Origin: Cellvibrio sp. OA-2007
GTDB lineage: Bacteria > Pseudomonadota > Gammaproteobacteria > Pseudomonadales > Cellvibrionaceae
DNA: 64,000 nucleotides
Direction of reading: 5' to 3'
Assembly: GCF_000953825.1 (NCBI RefSeq)
Contig: NZ_BBUL01000097.1
Span: 248,001 to 312,000, forward strand
A model generated the notes under the pieces. That model did not search any database. It was not told the DNA's origin and was given only the letters and a program-made list of their open reading frames with translations. Both the position numbers and the translations under genes were made by a program. This document shows positions 30,980 through 35,526 of the stretch, piece by piece. How positions within the stretch are numbered: position 1 is the first letter of the stretch; every line of letters starts with the position of its first letter.

Positions 30980-32005
30980 TTAGTACTCCAACTGCAAATT
31001 GCGATGATATTGCACAAGCGGTCGTTTGGTTTGACGCGACGCCAGTACAGCCTGCGCATAGTGCTCAGCCACAGCAATAGCCGCACAATTAATAATATCG
31101 AGATTGCCTGCATACTTAGGCAAGTAATCCCCTAGCCCCTCAACACTGAGATCAATCCGCACACCGCCATCAATTAACACGGGCGCTGATTCCATCTTAT
31201 AACCTGGAACATAAGCTTGAATCTGTTGCAGCATTGCCATTAATGGCTGCCATAATGCATCCAGATCCACCGCATCAGAATAAGCCGTCACACTGGTGAG
31301 CATGCGAGTTTCAGGGTTAACTTCATCGACTAATAACTCAACATCAAAAGCATTGATGCCGGTATATTTTTTCAACCCGGCCTTGGTATTGTGATAATAC
31401 TCATCCAGATTCGCGAGTGTTCCTGGGCCGATGGAGTTCGGCGACACTATCGATTTGACCGCAATTTTTTGCACATTGGGAATCACCTTGGCCAACACCT
31501 GTGCAACAGGAATAGAAGACTGGCCACCACAAGAAATCATGCTGATGTTTTTGTTTTCCAATACTTCCTTCATGCCCAAGGCTGGCACACAACATTCACC
31601 AATTTGGGATGGAGTCATATCAATTGCAAGAATGCCAAGCTTGTCGAAAACTTGAGCATGCTCAATATGATTAGCCGCGGATGTCGCATCAAACACTATA
31701 TCGCAGCGATAGCGGGGCTCAAAAAAAGCGTTAATGCCTTGATCTGATACAGGCACACCCAATTCGGCGGCGTAACACATACCTACCGATTGCAAATTTC
31801 TACCAGAGAAGATGACGCAATCCATCCATGGCGAGCGCCGCACTTTTACCAGCAAGTCTACTCCGATTTTTCCTGTCCCTATAATCCCAACCCGCAAACG
31901 ACCAGGCAATGAACCAACCTGCTCCTTGTTTACCTCTAAGGCATTTTTATGCGAAAAATTCCGCTGTAAAAAATCACCACTCAACAACGCTTTAATGAAC
32001 TGCAT
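30980..32005 (-). CDS. CoA-acylating acetaldehyde dehydrogenase homologue, stand-alone
   Basis: Homologous to the acylating aldehyde dehydrogenases MhpF/DmpF, which convert acetaldehyde, NAD and CoA to acetyl-CoA. The 341-residue protein has the NAD-binding VGIIGTGKIGVDLL (39-52) and the catalytic C159 in SCGGQSSIPVAQ; VDEVNPETRMLTSVTAYSD and GGVRIDLSVEGLGDYLPKYAGNLDI are recognisable. It has a 38-residue N-terminal tail not expected in the family, with AAGGA upstream of the ATG. DmpF normally channels from an adjacent aldolase (DmpG/MhpE). No aldolase, hydratase or aromatic pathway gene is near, so its substrate and partner here are unknown. Confidence 0.85.
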   Translation of the reverse strand: MQFIKALLSGDFLQRNFSHKNALEVNKEQVGSLPGRLRVGIIGTGKIGVDLLVKVRRSPWMDCVIFSGRNLQSVGMCYAAELGVPVSDQGINAFFEPRYRCDIVFDATSAANHIEHAQVFDKLGILAIDMTPSQIGECCVPALGMKEVLENKNISMISCGGQSSIPVAQVLAKVIPNVQKIAVKSIVSPNSIGPGTLANLDEYYHNTKAGLKKYTGINAFDVELLVDEVNPETRMLTSVTAYSDAVDLDALWQPLMAMLQQIQAYVPGYKMESAPVLIDGGVRIDLSVEGLGDYLPKYAGNLDIINCAAIAVAEHYAQAVLASRQTKRPLVQYHRNLQLEY

Positions 32006-32609
32006 AATTTAATCCTTGGCAAATTATCTCATTAACCGATTTACATCTCGGTGATCAGCATACGCCTCAAAGATTTCACAATCATTTTTCTATTGAAATA
32101 ACATTTTTTGTTTTTCGAGAACTGGCTCGCATAAAAAACAATAAACCGAAACGTGAAATTTCCCAAACAGAACAACTCTCCATCTTGTGCACCAAAACCA
32201 AACAAGAAAGACTTTTTCTGATCCGATAAATATACGACCCACAAAAAACAAGATTGTTTTTTGGTCAAAAAAGAACAAACAAAGGAAAAGGAAACTTTAA
32301 GCGACATATTTTTTTATGTCGCCCCAAAAAACCTATTAAAAAAATAACGATATCGTCATAATCCTCTGCCCGTTAACAATTATTAACGCATGACTACAAC
32401 ATGAGAGTTGAAGCGACCGCCTCTTTGCCGTGAGCAACCTTGTTATCACTGCTCATTGCTACTGTTAATACAATTTAAATTTGATAGCTAACATAATTAT
32501 TGTTAAGCAATCAATCACGGCTTTGAATAATAGTAAACGATACTTTGATCTGAGGTTTTGTCGAAGTAATAGATAAATTTCTGACAGCTGACAGCCAAAG
32601 GAGCATCAA
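32006..32609. promoter_or_regulatory. 604-bp divergent intergenic region with dyad repeats
   Basis: AT-rich DNA between the aldehyde dehydrogenase gene (leftward) and the unassigned 416-residue gene (rightward). It holds a stem GCGACATA/TATGTCGC (32301-32308 and 32315-32322), a perfect 10-bp palindrome ACGATATCGT (32347-32356), an 18-bp dyad CGTTAACAATTATTAACG (32371-32388) and a tandem CTGACAG pair (32581-32594) just before the ribosome site. These look like operator elements for one or both flanking genes. An 88-codon leftward frame inside it is judged spurious. Confidence 0.5.
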
Positions 32610-33860
32610 GTGGTTAAACAACCAAAATATTATTTTGAGGCCATTTTGGGAATTAATGCGCCTTGGTCAATACAAGATGTAAATGTGGATGAAAAGAATA
32701 AAATAATCCAAGTAACACTTTCACATCATACAGAAAAAACACGCTTTTCATTTTTCTCAAAAGGCAATGAAACTGAAAGCAATAAAATAGTTGACACTGG
32801 TTTGGGCAAACGTTGGTTGCACAGCAGTATCGGTTATTACAACTGCCACATAGTCTCTTCTGCTTATGACCCCAACATTTCCAGTGCCGGAATTAGCAGA
32901 GCTGCACTCTTACAGCCTAACTTTTTAGGCGATCCAAACCGTAATTACACTCATCAATTACGCCAGGAAGTAGCACTTGCCTATCTTCGCAATCTTTCAC
33001 CCGATGCAATTGCCAACATATTGCGCATCGATCAGGCAATTGTTGATGATATTTTAAGTGATATTGAAAAAACGCCTGAATCCTATCGCTTGGCTACTTG
33101 TTTACCCTGTGAATCAGACCCCATCTGGGAGAATATGATTTATGACAAATTTCATTTAAAAACCCAGTTGTTTCCTTTGAAGCTAATGCTATCAAAGCTA
33201 AAACTCAGCATGATTGATCCAAAAGTTGATGTTAAATTATCAGACTCAGTCACTGAATTACGTAAATTTTTTATCTCACATATCAACGCACTGGATTCAG
33301 AAGTTAGCCAAATAACTGCGCTCTCGATGAAGAAACAATCAGTAGAAGAAAGGCGCAATGTCACCACTAAATTAGTATTGCCAGCATTAAAAAATGGTAT
33401 CTGGTTAAAATTAATTACCGGAAAAATTGATCTTAACTCTACCAACATGCCACTAAACCTGTTTTTAGTGCGCTTGCGCCATGCGTTTCAAAATACCGAA
33501 GACAACAATATCCGTGTATCCGCACTTAATTCCCTGCGTGAATTTTTCCGCAAAAATGTTCGGAGTTTGAAAAAAGAACTGGTACTGATTAATCAGTTAA
33601 TGAACGCACCAGAAGAAGCACAATACTCACTACCTGACGAGCGCAGTGAAATCTGGAAACGCATATTAAAAGACGATACTTTCATCCCAAGTTCACACAT
33701 TGCTTATAAGCTCTTACTGTCTAATCTGCGCTCACAAATTCTGATGAATCCAGATCCAGTAGTCGAACTCAATGCCGTAAGACGAGTCAGAGACTTCATT
33801 AAACACAATCAGCGCTTCATGCAACAAGAACTACGCATGGTTTTAAGTAATAGCCGCTAA
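32610..33860 (+). CDS. Unassigned protein: ISL3-like N-terminus, HTH-like segment, three C-terminal repeats
   Basis: I cannot name this 416-residue protein. Residues 8-85 (ILGINAPWSIQDVNVD, then RWLHSSIGYYNCHI) resemble the N-terminal domain of ISL3-family transposases, but the zinc-binding Cys pairs are gone. Residues 115-152 (VALAYLRNLSPDAIANILRI) look like a helix-turn-helix. There is no DDE nuclease domain. Residues 172-410 hold three diverged repeats of 84-92 residues, each opening with a Trp (W173, W265, W349) and closing on a helix with LR-x-F and a C-terminal E(L/V). It starts with GTG after AAAGGAG. The gene pairs with the next one (30 bp). Inference: a DNA-binding protein built from a transposase N-terminus. 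Confidence 0.7.
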   Translation: MVKQPKYYFEAILGINAPWSIQDVNVDEKNKIIQVTLSHHTEKTRFSFFSKGNETESNKIVDTGLGKRWLHSSIGYYNCHIVSSAYDPNISSAGISRAALLQPNFLGDPNRNYTHQLRQEVALAYLRNLSPDAIANILRIDQAIVDDILSDIEKTPESYRLATCLPCESDPIWENMIYDKFHLKTQLFPLKLMLSKLKLSMIDPKVDVKLSDSVTELRKFFISHINALDSEVSQITALSMKKQSVEERRNVTTKLVLPALKNGIWLKLITGKIDLNSTNMPLNLFLVRLRHAFQNTEDNNIRVSALNSLREFFRKNVRSLKKELVLINQLMNAPEEAQYSLPDERSEIWKRILKDDTFIPSSHIAYKLLLSNLRSQILMNPDPVVELNAVRRVRDFIKHNQRFMQQELRMVLSNSR

Positions 33861-33890: not shown

Positions 33891-34919
33891 ATGGCACAAG
33901 ACGCCGACATCAGCATTCGCAGTGCGCTCATTAACCGCGAACAGCTTATTGAAAAAATTAACAAAGGCGAATACCTGGTAATCGCTGCCGATGAATCTGT
34001 ATTAACCGACTTACCTTCCGGTAATTGGATTGCAGGAACCATTCCCTACTTCATGACCACCGAAGGCGGAACAGTTGATCGCGAGAAAATTTTCGTTAAC
34101 ACCATAGAAGGTGTACAACCGAGTAACGCACCGCGCATTACCCTTTACGATGGCAACTCCATTTCGCGCATTGCGCAAGAAGCACCAGAACATGGTTTTA
34201 CCATTGTTATTTTGCCTGCAATGTCAGAGGTGCATTCATCCTATGCGCAAAATGCACCCGACTACGCCAATATGTATTTCTCACCTATTGTTGGTTGGAT
34301 TTCCGGGGTCCATCTGGAAGATATAGGTAGCCGCACAGCCAAAGTCGGCTTTGGCCCTGCCCGTGGAATGCTATTTGATCAACAAGCGGTGGCGATGCAC
34401 ATTCCATTACCAAGTAATCAATTAGCCAATATCAATATCGTCAATTTGTTTACTCAAGGTGACGGCCCTGAGATTAAATTTAAGAACACCGGCTTTAGCG
34501 TAAGTGATTGCACCATTAACGGCGAAGAGGCAAATCTTGCCGACTACATTAAATATTCCAAAATCGACACGCGCTTGCCATTAGTCGCCAATTATTCGGG
34601 CGTGATGATTAACGTGAGCATTCAGCAAGTCGATGAAAGTAATAACAAGGTAGATCTCTATGCCCCAGTATTTGCCGACATCAGCTACCGCTTTGCAAAA
34701 CCGGTTGATAATTACATTGAGAGTTTCAATAAAGAACTTTCTGCATCAGCAAGCGAGGGAATTTCTTTCTCTTGCAACTGTATTCTGAATTATCTTTATT
34801 CAGAATTGGAGGGGAAAAAGACGCGCGATTTAACCGGGCCAATTACCTTTGGTGAAGTGGCTTATCAGCTATTAAATCAAACACTTGTGTATCTCAGCAT
34901 CAGTGGCGGCTCCCGCTAA
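33891..34919 (+). CDS. Unassigned protein with FIST-like C-terminus (possibly DUF6976)
   Basis: A 342-residue soluble protein without signal peptide or membrane segments. The C-terminal part (about 290-338: SFSCNCILNYLY, then GPITFGEVAYQLLNQTLVYL) resembles the FIST C-terminal signature of a Cys-containing stretch, a GE pair and a final hydrophobic NxT strand. FIST domains are thought to be ligand-sensing signalling modules. The N-terminal half (NWIAGTIPYFMTTEGG and GFGPARGMLFDQQAVAMHI) could be the FIST N-terminal region. From memory it may belong to DUF6976; I could not check. AGGAG precedes the ATG. It lies 30 bp after the ISL3-like gene and ends in a strong terminator, so the two form a bicistron. 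Confidence 0.7.
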   Translation: MAQDADISIRSALINREQLIEKINKGEYLVIAADESVLTDLPSGNWIAGTIPYFMTTEGGTVDREKIFVNTIEGVQPSNAPRITLYDGNSISRIAQEAPEHGFTIVILPAMSEVHSSYAQNAPDYANMYFSPIVGWISGVHLEDIGSRTAKVGFGPARGMLFDQQAVAMHIPLPSNQLANINIVNLFTQGDGPEIKFKNTGFSVSDCTINGEEANLADYIKYSKIDTRLPLVANYSGVMINVSIQQVDESNNKVDLYAPVFADISYRFAKPVDNYIESFNKELSASASEGISFSCNCILNYLYSELEGKKTRDLTGPITFGEVAYQLLNQTLVYLSISGGSR

Positions 34920-34932
34920 AACCGAAACAAAC

Positions 34933-34966
34933 AAAAAAGGCGGATGCATACACATCCGCCTTTTTT
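34933..34966. terminator. Terminator after the unassigned bicistron
   Basis: Perfect 14-bp arms (34933-34946 and 34953-34966) with a 6-nt loop, A and T runs, 14 bp past the stop and before a convergent gene. Confidence 0.93.
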
Positions 34967-34988
34967 GTCACCTCTGAAAAAACCGTTA

Positions 34989-35513
34989 TTAACGCCCTGC
35001 TCCATAAGCCTGAATATATTTTTGCAATACCTTTTCATTTTTCTTAATAAATTCAATATCGCTTTTGGGCACCGCCAGAACAGCGGGATCGGCCTTTTCT
35101 TTTAATTGTTGCGCCTGCTCTTCGGTAACCTTACCTAAATCGCCAAACAAAAAATACGCAGCTATCGCATTGCCCAGTTTAGTGCTCAAACGCATATATT
35201 CGCCGACGGATTTCCAGCCGTGTTTTTGCGTAATCTGATTTGCACTGCCCAGTAGATTATTGGATTTTAATACGGCGTTAATTTTTTTATCTTGCTCTGC
35301 GGGCGGCAAAGCTTCAAAAACCTTAAGCTCTGCTTCGGTAGTATTCATGGAATCCACCAATTGCACGATGGGCGCAATATCGCGATTAGTTTGCATCCAG
35401 CGTGTAACCGACTGGGAATTCAAATTCTTATTGTCCGGCAGCAACTGCGCGCTGACCGATGCGCAACACACTACCAACATCCACACCACTAGATTTAACA
35501 ATACTGTTTTCAT
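34989..35513 (-). CDS. Exported helical protein of unknown function
   Basis: A protein of 174 residues from the second Met (35,513); the track of codons allows three more. A signal peptide (MKTVLLNLVVWMLVVCCASVSA) precedes a mostly helical, charged mature part. It has no lipobox, so a soluble periplasmic protein is expected. I do not recognise the family. It is 4 bp after the 129-residue membrane protein, so the pair is likely cotranscribed and may act together at the envelope. Confidence 0.72.
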   Translation of the reverse strand: MKTVLLNLVVWMLVVCCASVSAQLLPDNKNLNSQSVTRWMQTNRDIAPIVQLVDSMNTTEAELKVFEALPPAEQDKKINAVLKSNNLLGSANQITQKHGWKSVGEYMRLSTKLGNAIAAYFLFGDLGKVTEEQAQQLKEKADPAVLAVPKSDIEFIKKNEKVLQKYIQAYGAGR

Positions 35514-35526
35514 CACTATCACAAAC

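Follow-up and report, generated by a model that had tools for sequence, protein, structure and literature searches.

Introduction

Transposases of the ISL3 family (IS204/IS1001/IS1096/IS1165) combine a zinc ribbon (PF14690, Zn_ribbon_ISL3) with a helix-turn-helix (HTH; PF13542, HTH_Tnp_ISL3) and a DDE catalytic domain (PF01610, DDE_Tnp_ISL3). To our knowledge, the reuse of DNA-binding domains from bacterial insertion sequences as host regulators has rarely been traced step by step. A second group of relevance here is formed by the FIST sensors. One of them, NosP, is reported to serve a neighboring kinase as an auxiliary heme sensor (PMC12570481). The gene nosP lies within an alcohol-oxidation cluster of Pseudomonas, the ped/erc cluster (nosP-pedS1, ercA-kinase), in which it occurs together with an ErcA-type alcohol dehydrogenase and kinases in one alcohol/aldehyde cluster (PMC12997753, as far as the available text goes). 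No mention of DUF6976 was found in the literature searched, and searches on ISL3 domestication, on Pil-Chp systems with FIST and on exaptation in bacteria gave nothing recognized as the family described here.

The stretch of DNA analyzed, hereafter the window, comprises 64,000 nt from Cellvibrio sp. OA-2007. At 32610..33860 on its + strand it contains a gene, termed gene 1, for a 416-aa protein with an ISL3-like N-terminal module, an HTH and three 67-aa helical repeats. A first-pass annotation had described the protein as a captured DNA-binding module but missed the three tandem repeats and the pairing with a DUF6976 gene. Computation supports ISL3 homology, a single origin, cysteine loss, the repeats, the pairing, a FIST resemblance of DUF6976, selection, an inverted repeat and a recurrent dehydrogenase neighbor.

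Results and Discussion

Gene 1 is a conserved gene under purifying selection

The open reading frame 32610-33860 is a genuine gene with its own ribosome-binding site. It starts with GTG, and the preceding AGGAG (32599..32603, + strand), assigned by sequence, is conserved among related loci. Gene 1 is conserved end to end in eight close loci (75-89% identity; by title six Cellvibrio, one Cellvibrionaceae and one Gammaproteobacteria), and relatives also occur in distant genera (26-39% identity). Within the order, a search with the window protein matched 10 of 293 genomes. Eight of these contain full-length relatives, G084 having two, and in G274 the copy is partial and lies where a contig ends. 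The match in G013 (E 1.7e-4, with the window protein alone as query) is an 84-aa ORF close to a contig end, which, judged by eye, is an ISL3-type fragment and not a member of the gene 1 family.

The window protein matched nothing in Pfam, NCBIfam, PADLOC or PHROG that passed a cut-off or E 0.05 and had no match on plasmids, and in the phage collection neither gene 1 nor DUF6976 was matched. Sequence searches against solved structures gave nothing convincing for the gene 1 protein, the repeats or DUF6976; matches of the gene 1 family profile to 3n26/3qax (E 0.016-0.017) were dismissed as chance.

Gene 1 is under purifying selection. Compared with four orthologues (L001-L004), dN/dS is 0.025-0.028, a rough value because dS is saturated (2.1-2.9). 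The N-terminal 165 residues give 0.04-0.07 in the same comparisons and the remainder of the gene 0-0.02; hence, the head evolves faster than the repeats. Against L006, the N-terminal value is 0.21, with a saturated, infinite dS for the whole gene. The partner gene DUF6976 shows 0.02-0.04.

The head is related to the N-terminus of ISL3 transposases

Residues 8-85 (32631..32864, + strand) form an ISL3 zinc-ribbon-like region that lacks the cysteine pairs, as judged from hhalign with ISL3 N-termini and from the cysteine positions. A putative HTH follows at residues 108-158 (32931..33083, + strand), which is assigned from collinearity with HTH_Tnp_ISL3 of relatives (sub-cut-off Pfam matches), an AF2 model and VIA-align. 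On its own, the window protein gives little: residues 1-165 match nothing in Pfam at E up to 10, and the HTH has no direct Pfam match but is collinear in the profile alignment and the AF2 model. Among 16 family members searched with Pfam, Zn_ribbon_ISL3 was obtained from one only (E 0.079); trimming L013 to 165 residues gave E 0.028.

A family profile built from residues 1-165 of 12 members without paired cysteines was aligned with six ISL3-type N-termini, four from transposases (L035, L039, L028 and L078) and two from near-identical orphan N-domains (L037 and L038). The result was a probability of 97.95 and an E-value of 2e-12 over 156 columns, and the match is collinear and takes in the PW and RWxH motifs. 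Its score of 67.1 was reached by none of 200 column shuffles (maximum 11.9), and the reversed profile gave 5.05. A more distant ISL3 set (n=12) yielded a probability of only 27.6 (E 1.2e-4), with a score of 24.5 above all 200 shuffles (maximum 9.7). For the pooled set the score was 50.6, with one of 200 shuffles higher, an outlier of 127.8. The C-terminal half gave a probability of 0.09 against the close ISL3 profile. Thus, the ISL3-like N-terminus that the first-pass annotation had placed at residues 8-85 is borne out by the family profile (E 2e-12, 0/200 shuffles), whereas the profile check suggested there yields nothing for the window protein alone. In the structure prediction, the HTH was modeled, but the AF2 model of the full protein has a mean pLDDT of 42 and is usable for the HTH only (the alignment consisted of nine close sequences); VIA-align rows outside the HTH resemble helical-bundle noise.

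The cysteine pairs are indeed missing, as the first-pass annotation had noticed. The only cysteines in residues 1-165 of the window protein are C79 and C164, and there is no CxxC. However, CxxC...CxC is retained in two relatives, L084 and L085, whose genes precede DUF6976 in other families of the class. With Zn_ribbon_ISL3, L085 (30.8 bits, 4e-7) scores above the cut-off of 25.5 and L084 (23.7 bits, 6e-5) below it, while HTH_Tnp_ISL3 stays under its cut-off of 27.4 in both (L084 20.5 bits, 3e-4; L085 14.3 bits, 0.029). In both proteins the zinc ribbon precedes the HTH, which is the ISL3 order. L086 has a sub-cut-off HTH_Tnp_ISL3 match (E 0.012), and L058 matched neither ISL3 Pfam domain. The first-pass statement that there is no nuclease domain also stands: with E values up to 1 allowed, the window protein matched neither PF01610 nor any other Pfam DDE domain.

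Could the likeness be convergence on a small β-hairpin plus HTH instead of descent from ISL3? Zinc ribbon and HTH are common folds, and the single sequence has no Pfam match. The collinear 156-column match with its PW and RWxH motifs, the correct succession of the two Pfam domains in cysteine-bearing members and the shuffle controls, however, make convergence very improbable. Common ancestry of the head with the ISL3 N-terminal module is very likely.

A tree of 28 N-domains places the 16 repeat-bearing proteins on one side of a branch (support 100/98; 100% of 200 bootstrap trees) and splits L084 and L085 from the 14 members without paired cysteines (96/89). This tree is midpoint-rooted and has long branches, four end branches, including that of L058, being flagged as long. 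The simplest history, with which the tree fits, would be a single capture followed by loss of the cysteines. We infer that the transposase was the source of the head and not its sink.

An ISL3 transposase on a Caballeronia plasmid (L078:92-1318) has an intact DDE domain (220 bits) and is also without paired zinc-ribbon cysteines. Consequently, cysteine loss alone says little about function. A stand-alone protein of ISL3 ribbon plus HTH was found in two genomes of one genus (L037 in G034 and L038 in G100). Its 149-aa ORF, at about 1366-1812 of L037, leaves no room for a DDE domain and, by eye, has a TPR gene on one side and an FlhA-type export gene on the other. The two copies differ at 63 of 441 nt with a dN/dS of 0.016, and this is perhaps a second ISL3 head under selection.

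Helical repeats occupy the place of the catalytic domain

Where the DDE domain would be, residues 169-411 consist of three tandem 67-aa helical repeats. The repeat HMM places them at residues 169-235 (33114..33314), 262-327 (33393..33590) and 347-411 (33648..33842), all on the + strand. With a seed profile built solely from L084 and L085 (nine repeats), the three repeats are delimited as residues 168-237, 263-327 and 344-414 and have domain E-values of 1.6e-10 (27.2 bits), 5e-13 (35.2 bits) and 1.4e-11 (30.6 bits), respectively; the best of 1000 shuffled window proteins reached 10.3 bits. No Pfam family matches the repeat above cut-off.

An iterated profile, whose E-values come from a profile that already contains the same proteins, gives a copy number of three for those long order members that were tested, two for L058, five for L084 and four for L085. 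It finds a single repeat in L086, L083, L087, L059 and L060. In L083, L087, L059, L060 and G007 the repeat makes up nearly the entire protein. By itself, the seed profile scores the single copies at 55.1 (L086), 25.7 (L083), 22.8 (L059) and 16.2 bits (L060); G007 (9.8 bits) and L087 (8.2 bits) lie inside the range of the shuffles (maximum 10.3). Some second and third copies in distant order members are weak (6.5-17.9 bits, seed only). When 229 genomes of the class were searched with the repeat profile, three were matched (G000, G395 and G712), all donors of profile rows, and there was no match in any genome without DUF6976.

Repeat proteins are paired with DUF6976

Downstream of gene 1, at 33891..34919 on the + strand, lies a gene for a 342-aa protein of family DUF6976 (Pfam PF22396, E 1.1e-142, 475 bits against a gathering score of 27). 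Of 293 genomes of the order, 10 contain DUF6976, at 11 places in total, and of 369 genomes of the class, 6 contain it, the window's own included. Three further copies are on plasmids, one of them beside ccdAB. A phylum sample of 299 genomes showed one further weak, sub-cut-off match (G381). Apart from this match, 19 places were located via DUF6976 itself (11 in the order, five more in the class and three on plasmids). The eight close loci are also paired with DUF6976 and are excluded from this number since they were located via gene 1.

A clear repeat protein is encoded directly upstream of DUF6976 at 16 of the 19 places. At two others, G395 and G007, the small upstream protein has a weak single repeat. 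The last place, G093, is decayed, with a remnant of an ISL3-like N-terminus and a DUF6976 in pieces (L112; internal TGA, frame changes); three table rows, being pieces of this broken gene, were counted as one place. In G084, the entire pair of gene 1 and DUF6976 occurs twice in tandem (L092:6237-10970). The distance correlation between gene 1 and DUF6976 (r 0.84, 28 pairs) was not used because shared ancestry alone yields it.

Repeat protein and DUF6976 probably form one functional unit; our confidence was lowered a little because two partners show a weak single repeat. Five partners of DUF6976 (L059, L060, L083, L087 and G007) are repeats without the ISL3 head, and a search of all six frames of L059, L060, L083, L087 and L109 (G007) found no ISL3-like head at E up to 0.1. 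Hence, the pair must have a core function other than DNA binding. Its core is repeat plus DUF6976, and the head may be an optional tether.

A patchy distribution, with DUF6976 in 10 of 293 order genomes, and three plasmid copies, one next to ccdAB, would also suit a two-gene defense or stress module such as a toxin-antitoxin-like pair. Since PADLOC and the phage collection gave no match, and since DUF6976 resembles FIST and the neighboring genes are metabolic or signaling genes, we consider such a module very unlikely.

DUF6976 resembles FIST sensors

By hmmscan, DUF6976 has no match to a FIST family (PF08495/PF10442) at E up to 1. A profile comparison of 16 DUF6976 sequences with FIST, however, gave a probability of 94.3 and an E-value of 1e-7 over 221 columns, running C-terminus to C-terminus. 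The FIST profile was made from 29 of 34 fetched loci, five having been dropped by a length filter. The aligned part of DUF6976 comprises residues 99-338 (about 34185-34904). Restricted to dense columns, the comparison gave a probability of 81.8 and a score of 47.4, which none of 200 shuffles reached (maximum 32.0). Against only five FIST sequences the match was weak (probability 11.7), with a score of 31.7 compared with a shuffle maximum of 26.0. From these profiles, DUF6976 is probably FIST-related. Elsewhere in the genome of the window (L097, contig C8 94530-94901), a FIST domain is fused to an MCP-like C-terminus, the MCP part being assigned by eye.

The leader contains a conserved inverted repeat

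Upstream of gene 1, at 32541..32568, conservation reveals a 28-bp inverted repeat, TACTTTGA-N12-TCGAAGTA, as a candidate operator or promoter element. In an alignment of the window with seven related loci (L005 was left out as it has no upstream DNA), 26 of the 28 columns are invariant, compared with a mean of 8.2 per 28 columns. The 8-nt arms are invariant and include one G-T pair. An RNA structure at this site was rejected (z-score 0.04 over an 80-nt stretch). The pattern of arms and spacer has its sole exact match in the genome at 32541-32568; allowing two mismatches, the scan returned this site again on the opposite strand and a further two locations, and a control pattern had one match. 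The single exact match leaves a wider regulon without support. The inverted repeat was found in none of eight stretches of 300 nt before distant family genes, with up to three substitutions allowed. It may be an operator of the gene 1 protein or an ordinary promoter element. Downstream of the pair, a perfect 16-bp hairpin (34931..34968, scored on the - strand) is a possible terminator.

Between 31900 and 35100 there are eight inverted pairs of at least 11 nt, none of which brackets the two-gene unit. The first-pass annotation had seen no terminal inverted repeats around the gene; one 19-nt inverted pair (84% complementary) brackets gene 1 alone. Its right arm lies within the DUF6976 coding sequence, and it is thus not a convincing terminus. 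This imperfect pair, the homology at the N-terminus only and the one broken pair known (G093) are what a truncated ISL3 transposase would leave, its frame kept by chance or its product serving transposition in trans. Such a relic is extremely unlikely given a dN/dS of about 0.03 against four orthologues, the position of the right arm inside DUF6976, repeats in place of the DDE domain, a recurrent partner gene, relatives across genera, and a genome of the window in which Zn_ribbon_ISL3 has no match. An active transposase is disfavored along with the relic by the missing DDE match, the lack of convincing inverted repeats and purifying selection. The view in the first-pass annotation of a captured module with a new job rather than a relic is therefore supported, with DNA binding itself a presumed part of that job.

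Aldehyde dehydrogenase and signaling genes adjoin the pair

Divergent from gene 1 lies a gene of the acetylating acetaldehyde dehydrogenase type (30980..32005, - strand; PF09290, PRK08300), a candidate target. With NCBIfam, PRK08300 scores 324 bits (cut-off 166) and TIGR03215 275 bits, under its cut-off of 282. An MhpF-type dehydrogenase is divergent in all seven close loci that have upstream DNA (L005 has none), and an MhpF-like divergent neighbor is also present in G209 and G288, besides G000. In G162, G075 and G259, the product of the divergent gene is a cNMP-binding domain fused to an AdhE/EutE-like aldehyde dehydrogenase. These fusion genes (L090:6080-7867, L091:5161-6966 and L093:5354-7108) are 42-53% identical to each other, and their best NCBIfam models are acetylating acetaldehyde dehydrogenases with scores under the cut-offs; BLAST between the MhpF-like and the fusion dehydrogenases found nothing below E 1. 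A divergent neighbor of the acetaldehyde dehydrogenase type accompanies the pair in six of the eight order genomes with an intact long pair; in the other two, G245 and G084, no such dehydrogenase adjoins it. Since the neighbors in G162, G075 and G259 are homologous and G209 and G288 are near copies, the association amounts to approximately two independent events. G162 also has a class III alcohol dehydrogenase and an S-formylglutathione hydrolase downstream. On the other side of the pair in the window, at 34989-35522 on the - strand, a 177-aa protein without a Pfam match above cut-off is encoded; it is present in seven of the eight close loci, L003 being the exception, and was found in none of 16 other loci tested.

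The surroundings differ in other members. By Pfam, the genes after the pair encode a response regulator, CheW, an MCP and a CheA-type kinase in L085, a response regulator and CheW in L084, and CheR and CheB in L087. In L083, two kinases are encoded upstream of the pair. By eye, no chemosensory or kinase gene adjoins the pair in the window or in L088-L093, six loci of the order.

These neighbors would suit a signaling scaffold in place of a transcription factor. The repeat protein would bring several DUF6976 sensors to a chemosensory array or a histidine kinase, and the head would be a protein-interaction or dimerization domain that no longer binds DNA. This fits the chemosensory row headed by the pair in L085, the signaling genes of L084, L087 and L083, the loss of the head cysteines and the reported action of the FIST sensor NosP on a kinase (PMC12570481). 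That five partners have repeats in which no head was found is the strongest objection to a regulator and the reason why we keep the scaffold as a serious, though unlikely, alternative. Against it stand the absence of adjoining chemosensory or kinase genes from the window and L088-L093, the HTH as the best-predicted part of the AF2 model and the conserved inverted repeat before gene 1.

Proposed mechanism

As the working model we prefer a two-gene regulatory module consisting of a captured DNA-binding head, docking repeats and a FIST-like DUF6976 sensor, to which as a whole we give slightly less than an even chance. In gene 1, a head taken up a single time from an ISL3-family transposase would be fused to a series of 67-aa helical repeats. 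The head would comprise a zinc-ribbon fold, which later lost its cysteines, and the HTH. DUF6976 would act as the FIST-like sensor, and the repeats would presumably contact it as docking sites. Judging from the modeled HTH, the head may bind DNA and so keep the complex there. The probable site in Cellvibrio is the 28-bp inverted repeat, which lies before gene 1, between it and the divergent acetylating acetaldehyde dehydrogenase gene. A small ligand bound to DUF6976, possibly an aldehyde, NO or a heme-type signal, would change the complex and thereby transcription of its own operon and probably also of the dehydrogenase, the presumed target gene. Whether or not all these steps apply, the chances that the module is a transcriptional regulator appear evenly balanced. 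A link to aldehydes is conceivable but rather doubtful.

A more far-reaching idea is that of an undescribed sensory class. Here, a transposase-derived head would be joined to one to five docking repeats, each recruiting one FIST-like DUF6976. The resulting arrays would be tethered to DNA, elsewhere to chemosensory machinery, and would switch acyl-CoA-forming aldehyde dehydrogenases of unrelated families, with the repeat number tuning sensitivity. In this full form, the idea is speculative and probably does not hold.

The relatives of gene 1 show a likely path from a cysteine-bearing ISL3 head through one fusion to repeats to cysteine loss with a recurrent partner. In addition, DUF6976 gains a first functional frame, placed near the FIST sensors, and a 67-aa repeat without a Pfam match above cut-off is defined. 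With the 28-bp element and the divergent dehydrogenase, the regulatory idea can be tested directly.

Comparison with known systems

Compared with ISL3-family transposases, gene 1 is alike in the order and the motifs of zinc-ribbon region and HTH, and one cysteine-bearing relative, L085, passes the Zn_ribbon_ISL3 cut-off. In contrast to the transposases, gene 1 has neither a DDE match nor convincing terminal inverted repeats, and the window protein has no paired-cysteine zinc ribbon (PF14690). Instead, it has helical repeats and a recurrent partner gene.

With FIST/NosP systems, DUF6976 shares a 221-column alignment that takes in the C-terminal GE...NQT motif, and in L083, L084, L085 and L087 it likewise has kinase or chemosensory genes as neighbors. 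It differs in being a separate Pfam family that is paired with a repeat protein. With regard to the ped/erc cluster, the accessible text of PMC12997753 makes no mention of an ISL3-derived repeat protein, but the Sphaerotilus DUF6976 adjoins an iron-containing alcohol dehydrogenase for which NCBIfam gives ErcA as the best model, at a sub-cut-off score. Gene 1 and DUF6976 thus represent known kinds of parts in a new combination.
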